Origin: Cloacibacterium rupense
GTDB taxonomy: Bacteria; Bacteroidota; Bacteroidia; Flavobacteriales; Weeksellaceae
DNA length: 64,000 bases
Assembly (NCBI RefSeq): GCF_014645495.1
Contig: NZ_BMLV01000002.1
Span: forward strand, 673,191-737,190
Direction of reading: 5' to 3'
Positions 42,211 to 44,868 of the stretch are shown one piece after another (within the stretch, counting starts at the first letter, position 1; the number at the start of each line of letters is the position of its first letter). The translations under genes and the position numbers were made by a program. Under the pieces are notes generated by a model. The model worked only from the letters and a program-made list of their open reading frames with translations. It made no database searches and was not told the origin of the DNA.

Positions 42211-43479
42211 ATGTTACAAGTAAGTTTTTTACGTGAACAAAAAGAACGCGTAGTAGAAGGTCTTAAAAAAAGAAATTTCAAGAACCTAGAGTTGGTAGAT
42301 GAAGCTATTCAACTAGATGATTTAAGAAAAAAAACGCAGTTAGAGTTAGATACTCAGCTTTCGGAAATCAATAAAATTTCGAAAGAAATAGGTATGCTAA
42401 TGAAAGATGGTAAAAAAGATGAAGCAGAAGTTGCAAAGTCAAAAACTGCTCAGTACAAAGAATCATCCAAAGAACTTACGGCTAAACTTTCGGAAATAGA
42501 AGTTTCTCTCCAAAATATTTTATATCTTATTCCTAATATTCCTTATGAAAAAGTAGTGGCTGGTGTTTCTGCTGATGATAATGAGGTGGTTTATCAATCT
42601 CACGAAGTTCATGGTTTAGGCGAAGGTGCTATCCCACATTGGGAATTGGCGAAAAAATACAATTTAATAGATTTTGAATTGGGCGTGAAAATAGCGGGTG
42701 CTGGTTTCCCAGTTTATTTAGGAAAAGGTGCTAGGTTGCAAAGAGCTTTGGTTCAATATTTCTTAGATAAAAATACAGATGCAGGTTATCTAGAAGTGAA
42801 TCCTCCACACGTTGTAAACGAAGCTTCTGGTTACGGAACTGGGCAATTACCAGATAAAGAAGGGCAAATGTACCATGTTGGTTTAGATGATTTATATCTT
42901 ATACCAACAGCTGAAGTTCCTGTGACTAATATTTACAGAGATGTTATCATAGATGAAAAAGATTTGCCAATTAAAAATACAGCTTTTTCACAATGTTATA
43001 GAAGAGAAGCTGGTAGTTATGGCGCTCATGTTAGAGGTCTAAATAGACTTCACCAATTCGAAAAAGTAGAAATTGTAAGAATAGAAAAACCAGAGAATTC
43101 TTATGCAGCTTTAGAAGAAATGGTAGCTCACGTAAAATCTATTTTAGAAGATTTAGAATTACCTTTCAGAATTTTGAGACTTTGTGGTGGTGATATGGGT
43201 TTCACCTCTGCTATGACTTATGATTTTGAAGTGTGGAGTGCGGCGCAAGAAAAGTGGTTAGAAGTTTCTTCTGTTTCTAATTTTGAAACTTTCCAAGCGA
43301 ATAGATTAAAATGCAGAATAAAAGGTGACGGAAAAACACAATTGGCACATACTCTAAATGGCTCTGCAATGGCCTTGCCAAGAATTATGGCGGCTTTATT
43401 AGAGAATAATCAAGTGGAAGGAGGCATTAAACTTCCGAAAAAAGTAGCAGAATATGCCAGATTTGAAATGATTGATTAA
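42211..43479 (+). CDS. serS: Seryl-tRNA synthetase
   Basis: 422 residues from ATG 42211 (MLQVSFLREQKERVVEGLKKRNFKN), the family start. The N-terminal coiled-coil arm is about residues 25-100; class II motif 2 is FSQCYRREAGSYG and motif 3 is NGSAMALPRIMAALLENNQ. Earlier in-frame TTG/ATG codons read through the repeat and are rejected. Charges tRNA-Ser with serine. Followed by a strong palindromic terminator. Confidence 0.97.
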   Translation: MLQVSFLREQKERVVEGLKKRNFKNLELVDEAIQLDDLRKKTQLELDTQLSEINKISKEIGMLMKDGKKDEAEVAKSKTAQYKESSKELTAKLSEIEVSLQNILYLIPNIPYEKVVAGVSADDNEVVYQSHEVHGLGEGAIPHWELAKKYNLIDFELGVKIAGAGFPVYLGKGARLQRALVQYFLDKNTDAGYLEVNPPHVVNEASGYGTGQLPDKEGQMYHVGLDDLYLIPTAEVPVTNIYRDVIIDEKDLPIKNTAFSQCYRREAGSYGAHVRGLNRLHQFEKVEIVRIEKPENSYAALEEMVAHVKSILEDLELPFRILRLCGGDMGFTSAMTYDFEVWSAAQEKWLEVSSVSNFETFQANRLKCRIKGDGKTQLAHTLNGSAMALPRIMAALLENNQVEGGIKLPKKVAEYARFEMID

Positions 43480-43506
43480 GAATAATATTTTTTATGTTAT
43501 AAAACA

Positions 43507-43530
43507 AAACCACCGAAATTTCGGTGGTTT
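43507..43530. terminator. Perfect 24-bp palindromic terminator
   Basis: AAACCACCGAAATTTCGGTGGTTT is a perfect palindrome between convergent serS and the NIL-domain gene; both sides have A/T runs. Confidence 0.88.
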
Positions 43531-43560
43531 TGTGGTGAAAGTAAAAGTGAATTTTCACAT

Positions 43561-43839
43561 TCATACATATCCTTTAATTACATTTTTAATTTTATTTTTT
43601 CTGAAAAATTGAAAAGCGGTTTCGTTTATCTCTTTTGCTCCATTTAGTTGTAGAAGTATATTTCCATAATTGTTTTTGCCAAAGTATTCTACATCAGCTT
43701 TTACTAGAGTGTAAGGTACATTGTATTGATAATCAATAGTGTCTATCAAGTCTTTAAAAGTAATGTTTCCTTCTAGAACTATTTCTACTAATGGAAATGT
43801 TTCTTTTGCGTGTTCTAAATTAGGTAATGTAGATTTCAT
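43561..43839 (-). CDS. Stand-alone NIL-domain protein
   Basis: 92 residues from ATG 43839 (MKSTLPNLEHAKETFP). The body (FPLVEIVLEGNITFKDLIDTIDYQYNVPYTLVKADVEYFGKN..., ILLQLNG, AFQFFRKNKIKNVIKGYV) looks like the NIL domain, an ACT-like fold normally found at the C-terminus of the methionine ABC importer ATPase MetN, where it binds methionine for feedback inhibition. Here it stands alone, without metN, metI or metQ. Could sense an amino acid for another transporter. The assignment rests on sequence pattern and length. Confidence 0.72.
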   Translation of the reverse strand: MKSTLPNLEHAKETFPLVEIVLEGNITFKDLIDTIDYQYNVPYTLVKADVEYFGKNNYGNILLQLNGAKEINETAFQFFRKNKIKNVIKGYV

Positions 43840-43869
43840 AATATTTTTTTGTGATGTGATTTTGTAGTA

Positions 43870-43901
43870 TAAAAAAACTCTTCCAAAATAATCGGAAGAG
43901 T
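43870..43901 (-). terminator. Terminator after the micropeptide gene
   Basis: ACTCTTCC/GGAAGAGT (43877-43884 with 43894-43901) followed on the minus strand by seven T (43877..43871). It begins 33 nt after the micropeptide stop codon. Confidence 0.85.
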
Positions 43902-43933
43902 ATATCATATATTATTAAGTTTTTATTTAATAA

Positions 43934-44032
43934 CTAGCCTCCGATTCCATAGTTTATGCATTGCTGCATGTTATTTGCGCAATTCTGTGAATTTGAATTT
44001 TGAATTATATTTTTTAGGGATTGCTTGTTCAT
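43934..44032 (-). CDS. 32-residue peptide ending in Gly-Gly
   Basis: An open frame of 33 codons, ATG 44032 to TAG 43934. It begins MNKQSLKNIIQNSNSQ and ends CINYGIGG; cysteines are at 18 and 25. It is polar, asparagine/glutamine-rich, with neither signal peptide nor hydrophobic span. Support for a real gene: a TATATTTG -7 box 28 nt upstream (44068..44061), a clean terminator after the stop, and no overlap with other genes. The Gly-Gly end recalls leader peptides of Bacteroidota natural-product precursors, but no core peptide or maturation enzyme follows. I assign no function. See findings. Confidence 0.6.
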   Translation of the reverse strand: MNKQSLKNIIQNSNSQNCANNMQQCINYGIGG

Positions 44033-44060
44033 TTTTGTTGTTTTTCCAAAAATTATAATA

Positions 44061-44068
44061 CAAATATA
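44061..44068 (-). promoter_or_regulatory. -7 box of the micropeptide gene
   Basis: TATATTTG on the minus strand, TAnnTTTG, 28 nt before the ATG. No TTTG -33 at the expected spacing; the upstream 30 nt are A/T homopolymer-rich. Confidence 0.5.
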
Positions 44069-44133
44069 AGGGTTAGTTATTAAAAAATATATTTTTTTAA
44101 TAAAAATTTCATTAAAATAAAGGGGGGTATTGT

Positions 44134-44868
44134 TTAATGACAGTTTTTGTCTGAATTTGGTTCAGAATTTTTTTGTTTTTCTACCTTCAGTGCTTCTTTT
44201 TTAGGGGATACGTAAGGAATACCTAATTCTAATCCTCGTAATATAAATAAACCGCCAAGGGCTAACATAAAAATGGGAACAATTTTAAGGATTTTATTTC
44301 TTACGGTTACATTTAGTAAATTTCCGAAGAGAACAGCTGCAAACATAAAAGGAAAAGTTCCCAAACCAAAAAGAGCCATAAAAGTGGCGCTTTGCCATAT
44401 TCCACCGGCTGCTAAACTTGCAGTAAGTGCCATATAAACCATACCACATGGTAAAAAACCGTTGAGTACTCCAGTAAGGAATCTGGATGAATAATCTGAT
44501 TTTTGTAGTAATCTCCCTAAATTTAGTTTTACTTTTAAAAGAGCATTATTGATAGAAGGGATTTTTGAAGCAAAATCACCACCAAATGAAAATAGAGCCA
44601 TTATGATGAGTAAAATGCCAGAGAGAATGCTGATGTATTTTTGAAATCCGGCTAACTGAAAACCTTCTCCAACGATGCCTACCAATGCACCTAAAAATGA
44701 ATAGGTGAAGATTCTTCCAAATTGATATGTAAGGTTTTGTAGATGAAAATTGACTTGTTGTTTTTTTGATAAACCTAATGAAAGAGCAATTGGGCCGCAC
44801 ATTCCTAGACAATGAAATCCAGAAGCGAAGCCTAAACCTATTGCTGCAATTATTAGTGCTATTTCCAT
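44134..44868 (-). CDS. SafE/DsbD-type membrane protein of the cbb3 locus
   Basis: 244 residues. About six membrane helices; GFHCLGMCGPIALSL near the N-terminus and GFLPCGMVYMALTAS in the middle are the paired cysteine motifs of the DsbD_2/sulfite-exporter family that accompanies cbb3 oxidases. Such proteins are thought to help with copper or thiol handling during oxidase assembly. It overlaps the ccoH stop by 10 nt, so it is the last gene of the oxidase operon. The histidine/cysteine-ended tail (SDKNCH) is unusual. Confidence 0.85.
   Translation of the reverse strand: MEIALIIAAIGLGFASGFHCLGMCGPIALSLGLSKKQQVNFHLQNLTYQFGRIFTYSFLGALVGIVGEGFQLAGFQKYISILSGILLIIMALFSFGGDFASKIPSINNALLKVKLNLGRLLQKSDYSSRFLTGVLNGFLPCGMVYMALTASLAAGGIWQSATFMALFGLGTFPFMFAAVLFGNLLNVTVRNKILKIVPIFMLALGGLFILRGLELGIPYVSPKKEALKVEKQKNSEPNSDKNCH

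Follow-up and report, generated by a model that had tools for sequence, protein, structure and literature searches.

The 32-residue open reading frame (ORF) on the minus strand at 44032..43934 of the window, by which we mean the whole 64,000-nucleotide stretch of Cloacibacterium rupense DNA analyzed here, is best explained as the leader peptide of an attenuator for a neighboring NIL-domain gene, probably a cysteine-responsive one, and we consider this overall reading likely. Taken separately, a transcription attenuator governing the stand-alone NIL gene, with this ORF as its leader, is very likely, and cysteine as the attenuator signal is reasonably likely. The observations behind it, all at the level of sequence, are the ORF with its box and terminator, the complementarity between ORF end and terminator, conservation in a single relative, a terminator homolog in a cysteine operon, and poly-Cys leaders ahead of cysM genes.

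Probable Leader ORF, −7 Box and Terminator

The original prediction described a 32-residue ORF with its own box 28 nt upstream and a terminator downstream, and all of these are present on the minus strand. The ORF encodes MNKQSLKNIIQNSNSQNCANNMQQCINYGIGG followed by a stop codon. A candidate −7 box of the Bacteroidota sigma-A type, TATATTTG, lies at 44068-44061, with 28 nt from box to leader ATG; it is the sole minus-strand match in 43701-44150 to the consensus TAnnTTTG (given in the available part of PMC9723704). Downstream, the hairpin ACTCTTCCGATTATTTTGGAAGAGT at 43901-43877 (minus strand; 10 bp, then a T run) was recovered by a terminator scan and by folding, and is the single terminator-like site listed for 43400-44300 (shuffle mean 0.2). 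The length of the leader ORF is no evidence by itself, because many ORFs of similar length are listed in the window. The peptide is N/Q-rich, as had been stated, with 8 Asn (P 0.0006) and 5 Gln (P 0.005) of 31 residues when compared with window proteins, and its two cysteines (P 0.024), Cys18 and Cys25, are indeed seven residues apart. Their TGC codons (43979..43981 and 43958..43960, minus strand) are non-adjacent, and the window leader has no run of any one regulatory codon. The peptide had no match in NCBIfam and Pfam at E<=10, and there were no Rfam matches in the window at gathering scores.

The view of this interval as a complete small unit holds for box, ORF and terminator; it overlooked the ORF that starts 37 nt past the terminator stem (43839-43561, minus strand). 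This ORF encodes 92 aa consisting of a NIL domain alone (Pfam NIL, E 2.8e-9), and is the proposed regulated gene. Between leader ORF and NIL gene there is no TAnnTTTG, either in the window or in its relative described below. An inverted repeat at 43506..43531, noticed by eye and absent from the terminator-scan listing, separates the convergent NIL and serS genes and is possibly a bidirectional terminator.

Conservation in a Sister Species

The leader is known from two genomes, the second being G004 (public MAG UBA1937, with 2% estimated contamination), the sole real relative among 7 genus genomes. Its copy, MNKQPLKNIFQYSNLQNCAINMQQCINYGIGS, is 84% identical over 31 residues, keeps both cysteines, and ends in GIGS, not GIGG. 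Between the two ORFs, 13 nucleotide changes produce 6 residue changes, with no indel and with the stop kept; so few residue changes without a stop were infrequent under random placement (simulated P 0.010-0.029), and dN was 0.079 against a dS of 0.635. Since four of the five silent codon changes fall in codons 1-15, and one in codons 16-32, the 3′ half of the leader ORF may also be constrained as RNA. Window and G004 also share the box (identical in G004), the terminator and a syntenic arrangement of the unit with serS and NIL. The sister-species copy lifts the leader ORF above chance, and the ORF is probably real. Conservation in relatives had been proposed as a check; cysteines, frame and coding-type changes are kept in G004, while the terminal GG is not, so that the GIGG end, correctly described for the window peptide, has a final Gly that is not conserved.

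At the family level, the peptide search gave matches in 5 of 246 genomes at E<=0.1, and the genuine ones were those in the window genome (G000) and G004 only; at the order level, the one match in 395 genomes was the query itself. Family matches in G062 and G031 were rejected by eye as lying inside apparent coding regions of unrelated genes, and a match in G145 (L008) was rejected because its query range and identity equal those of the G031 match, with a stop inside. Weak genus matches in G005 and G003 (E 0.56 and 0.79) were rejected as chance; among such weak matches, L004 precedes an apparent ribosomal-protection gene (by eye), and L005 is some 0.39 Mb away from serS. The remaining five genus genomes held neither leader peptide nor NIL gene at the thresholds used. 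In G006, a DsbD-like gene directly follows serS. The gap between serS and the DsbD-like gene is a variable spot: in four sister genomes (L043, L044, L045, L047) a lipoprotein-like gene (by eye) replaces leader and NIL.

Pairing of the Leader ORF End With the Terminator

The last codons of the window leader, those encoding GIGG, form a putative antiterminator strand, AATCGGAGG (43938..43946, minus strand), which pairs over 9 bp with CTTCCGATT (43898-43890, minus strand), a shared strand that could otherwise supply the 5′ arm and loop of the terminator. Dinucleotide shuffles matched this pairing in 5 of 2000, 0 of 500 and 6 of 1000 cases, with different upstream stretches. An 8-bp pairing of ATCGGAAG with CTTCCGAT is found in G004 (equaled by 2/2000 and 7/1000 shuffles), where one G-U pair of the window has become A-U. 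Of the 14 window terminators located with our own finder, this one alone showed leader-terminator complementarity in excess of shuffles, the next best being reached by 12% of shuffles. The C-terminus of the peptide looks like an antiterminator strand rather than a Gly-Gly processing site.

Folding of the whole leader, which including the terminator folds better than shuffles (z −3.3), favors terminator over antiterminator at −31.2 versus −27.8 kcal/mol in the window and −28.7 versus −25.0 in G004 (advantages of 3.4 and 3.7), and a ribosome placed at Cys25 leaves the same order, with −16.9 versus −12.7 and −15.1 versus −9.8 (4.2 and 5.3 kcal/mol, respectively). The terminator is the more stable final fold, and antitermination would therefore have to be kinetic; the fold predicted before the 3′ arm of the terminator has been made is the antiterminator, in window and G004 alike. 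On the assumption of a 16-nt ribosome footprint counted from the P site, placing the Cys25 codon in the A site would bring the end of the ribosome to 1 nt short of the antiterminator strand in the window and 2 nt short of it in G004; a ribosome at the leader stop codon would cover that strand. A hairpin at codons 17-25 that might serve for protection or pausing was rejected, as 39/200 shuffles were as good (z −0.8). The unit appears to combine several features expected of an attenuator: a conserved short ORF ahead of a gene, a terminator between them, a predicted exclusive antiterminator at the ORF end, and, under the assumed footprint, a stall position at Cys25 that would leave this strand exposed.

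These features suggest how transcription, translation, stalling and readthrough may be coupled. The transcript would begin from the TATATTTG box. With an ample supply of Cys-tRNA, the ribosome would reach the stop codon and cover AATCGGAGG, whereupon CTTCCGATT would join the terminator hairpin and transcription would end before NIL. When Cys-tRNA is short, the ribosome would stall at Cys18 or Cys25 and leave AATCGGAGG free to capture CTTCCGATT once made, delaying the terminator and allowing RNA polymerase to read into NIL. The leader product itself seems hardly to matter, and the progress of the ribosome would decide between stop and readthrough.

The NIL Gene Behind the Terminator

Compared with MetN C-termini of genus g20, the NIL protein reaches 53% identity; it also matches the MetN structure 2qrr in PDB (E 8.4e-8). 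Between window and G004, the gene has a dN of 0.058 and a dS of 0.321, and looks to be under constraint. The MetQ family (PF03180) had matches in 0 of 7 genus genomes; NIL is therefore unlikely to serve a methionine importer, and this role was rejected. The stand-alone NIL is closest to the MetN C-terminus despite the lack of a MetQ match in the genus, and was perhaps left from or borrowed from MetN. MetN as the source of the leader was rejected, no leader or terminator being seen by eye ahead of metN in the one g20 metN locus inspected (L011). The probable ligand of the NIL protein is a sulfur amino acid or some other sulfur compound.

A Cysteine Operon Beside the Unit in G004

In G004, leader and DsbD-like gene are separated by genes for a CysM-like enzyme, a JAB protein and a ThiS-ThiF-rhodanese fusion, together with tRNA-Cys, all on one strand, so the leader unit sits behind cysM-JAB-ThiS/MoeZ-tRNA-Cys. 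A role as regulator of the adjacent cbb3 locus, one of the original suggestions, lacks support on two counts: about 3.6 kb containing these cysteine-biosynthesis genes and tRNA-Cys intervene in G004, and the unit points away from the cbb3 genes, into NIL. The G004 cysM is itself preceded by two short Cys-rich ORFs, MNTLIQYNNTQKTSMMVCCVCMQSRNCCIG (leader a) and MKSKINNITAKICCMEKTIPIFCV (leader b, 42 aa from an upstream TTG start), in tandem at L056 7166-6844 on the minus strand, each with its own terminator behind; leader a has a TACATTTG box. The terminator of leader a is homologous to that of the window (the alignment was reached by 0/1000 shuffles), and the 32-nt spacing is identical in the two. 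The last codons of leader a, ATC GGA, pair with its terminator arm (1/1000 shuffles), the ATCGGA pairing being common with the window. Outside the terminator, DNA similarity between window leader and leader a is not significant (235/1000 shuffles reach the same). Leader b has a 7-bp CTGTGTC/GACACAG pairing, outside the arm used in the shuffle test. These comparisons are best read as one terminator module common to the window leader and to a poly-Cys leader ahead of a cysteine operon.

In the window genome the MoeZ fusion was unmatched at E<=1e-40. A search of 246 family genomes with the fusion of G004 (cysteine operon at L056 3400-7270) gave, at E<=1e-100, a single further match, a weaker one; the operon was perhaps acquired horizontally. 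Two distant Bacteroidota genomes have tRNA-Cys directly behind MoeZ (L086 2628-2701; L056 3835-3906), and a tRNA-Cys scan of 32 loci found this in 1/32 besides G004.

Poly-Cys Leaders Ahead of Other CysM Operons

A MoeZ protein search of 385 class genomes gave matches in 79. CysM adjoins MoeZ in 14 of 31 loci checked (30 from the class search, one from the family search), and for all 14 the sequence upstream of cysM was retrieved. A run of at least four Cys occurs in a short ORF at most 450 nt ahead of cysM in 8/14 (L116, L117, L118, L119, L122, L123, L125, L149); a ninth locus, L126, has two Cys-run ORFs upstream of an AhpC/TSA-type gene, which itself stands before cysM. Poly-Cys leaders are thus found in 9/14 CysM loci other than G004, and the other five (L120, L121, L124, L127, L128) have no counted leader. 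Left out of the count were a CC-containing ORF of L121, which has no terminator, and L093, where the contig ends before cysM; a further 20 loci outside the count had CysM in 0/20. In 8/9 loci (L123 being the exception) and in G004, the leader region contains a terminator or is followed by one. Runs of at least four TGY codons number 13 in the 1,325,170 bases of fetched, partly overlapping loci (both strands), and nine of the 13 are these leaders. Pairing between leader and terminator arm went beyond shuffles (<=10/1000) in 5/11 pairs, three of which share one homologous terminator; in 6/11 it was not significant (90 to 914 of 1000 shuffles). Cys leaders are in tandem in 4/10 leader loci, namely G004 (L056), L119, L122 and L126.

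None of CysM, JAB or MoeZ was found by tblastn in the 10 fetched loci of other stand-alone NIL genes, no NIL was found in the 31 MoeZ loci (with flanks mostly of 1.5 kb), and NIL had no match in plasmids. In five genus g9 loci (L057, L058, L059, L064, L065) a DUF4395 gene (Pfam) adjoins a stand-alone NIL gene. The cysteine operon of G605 continues with tRNA-Cys, a peroxiredoxin and DUF4395. Genomic contexts loosely tie together NIL, DUF4395 and the cysteine operon.

We tentatively propose a wider scheme, possible rather than probable: Bacteroidota may own a widespread, sometimes tandem cysteine attenuator, with poly-Cys leaders and terminators ahead of the cysteine operon of CysM, JAB and MoeZ (ubiquitin-like sulfur carrier); one copy of the attenuator would have been reused in this genus to place a MetN-derived stand-alone NIL under cysteine control, NIL being a new accessory of cysteine supply. 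If Cys-run leaders with terminators do act this way in Bacteroidota, a phylum with amino-acid attenuators little described, cysteine supply would be governed by ribosome speed, and orphan NIL and JAB/MoeZ genes would be joined in one regulon. An attenuator would also account for the Gly-Gly-like appearance of this small ORF, with no need to invoke a product.

Alternative Explanations

The same attenuator could respond to another signal: too little Gln or Asn, methionine, or a small molecule through which the nascent peptide stalls. Asn and Gln (8 and 5 of 31 residues) are more enriched than Cys, and another amino acid could therefore be sensed; QQ at 23-24 directly precedes Cys25, Met22 is conserved in G004, and methionine binding by a NIL domain has been reported (PMC12068725, in the portion available). 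However, Asn codons are favored by AT-rich DNA, the leaders of cysM operons carry Cys runs, and the neighbors in G004 are cysteine-synthesis genes and tRNA-Cys, and we regard another signal as unlikely. The same terminator switch might instead be thrown by an RNA sensor of the riboswitch type, with the ORF dispensable, a reading to which the fold of the whole leader with its terminator and the near lack of change in codons 16-31, silent sites included, would lend themselves. It appears improbable, given the coding-type substitution pattern of the leader, the Cys-coding runs that make up the cysM leaders, a hairpin in codons 17-25 no better than shuffles, and the lack of Rfam matches in the window.

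A small protein unconnected with NIL and ended by a terminator of its own, NIL being expressed separately and the complementarity accidental, would fit a unit that appears complete alone, and a NIL promoter of another type is conceivable. Yet the 37 nt from terminator stem to NIL leave little promoter room, the complementarity is both rare among shuffles and conserved, and a homologous terminator stands ahead of cysM in G004; we hold this very improbable. The original interpretation is partly supported: the small transcription unit stands, here with a regulatory leader peptide, and a stand-alone signaling peptide, a leader that lost its core and a cbb3 regulator find no support. To a Gly-Gly leader of a ribosomal natural product, with or without a lost core, we give virtually no credence: the GIGG end of the window genome speaks for it, but the relative ends in GIGS with Ser in place of the last Gly and nothing after, the peptide is unmatched in NCBIfam and Pfam, the neighboring ORFs include no core, peptidase or maturation gene (ORF list, by eye), and the GIGG codons would serve as an RNA strand of the antiterminator.

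Comparison With Known Attenuators

The classical trp, his and leu attenuators consist of a short ORF, an antiterminator strand at the ORF end, a shared strand, a terminator and the regulated gene. The window unit resembles them in having ORF, antiterminator, shared strand, terminator and gene in the same order, and differs in that it has no regulatory-codon run, no clear protector hairpin, and a NIL-domain target. A further difference may be that Shine-Dalgarno sequences are absent in flavobacteria, as described for F. psychrophilum, a species other than the host, in the available part of PMC9723704.

In Actinobacteria, leader peptides with Cys runs precede cysteine-synthesis genes, and terminator hairpins were not found there (PMC1262725, accessible portion); in mycobacteria, polycysteine ORFs are reported to function as attenuators (Canestrari 2020, as cited in an excerpt of PMC13236596). 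The Bacteroidota leaders are similar in being short Cys-codon ORFs ahead of cysteine-synthesis genes; unlike the actinobacterial ones as that portion of PMC1262725 presents them, they have a terminator nearby in 8/9 leader loci and in G004. In Flavobacterium psychrophilum, leader-peptide attenuation before amino-acid operons was inferred from the transcriptome on strong clues, and the available text of that report, its supplement aside, does not name cysteine or NIL as targets (PMC9723704). Short ORFs were noted in 5′ UTRs of Bacteroides thetaiotaomicron (PMC7366714, in part). No published description of poly-Cys terminator leaders in Bacteroidota was found among the best-ranked matches listed from a mostly open-access literature.

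The window NIL shares its Pfam domain and a sulfur amino-acid context with MetN and with NIL/ferredoxin homocysteine proteins (PMC5764234 and PMC12068725, both from partial texts). In contrast to the NIL of MetN, the domain stands alone, in a genus where the MetQ family PF03180 is unmatched in 7/7 genomes. Overall, the attenuation mechanism proposed here seems to be a known one, placed in an unusual setting.
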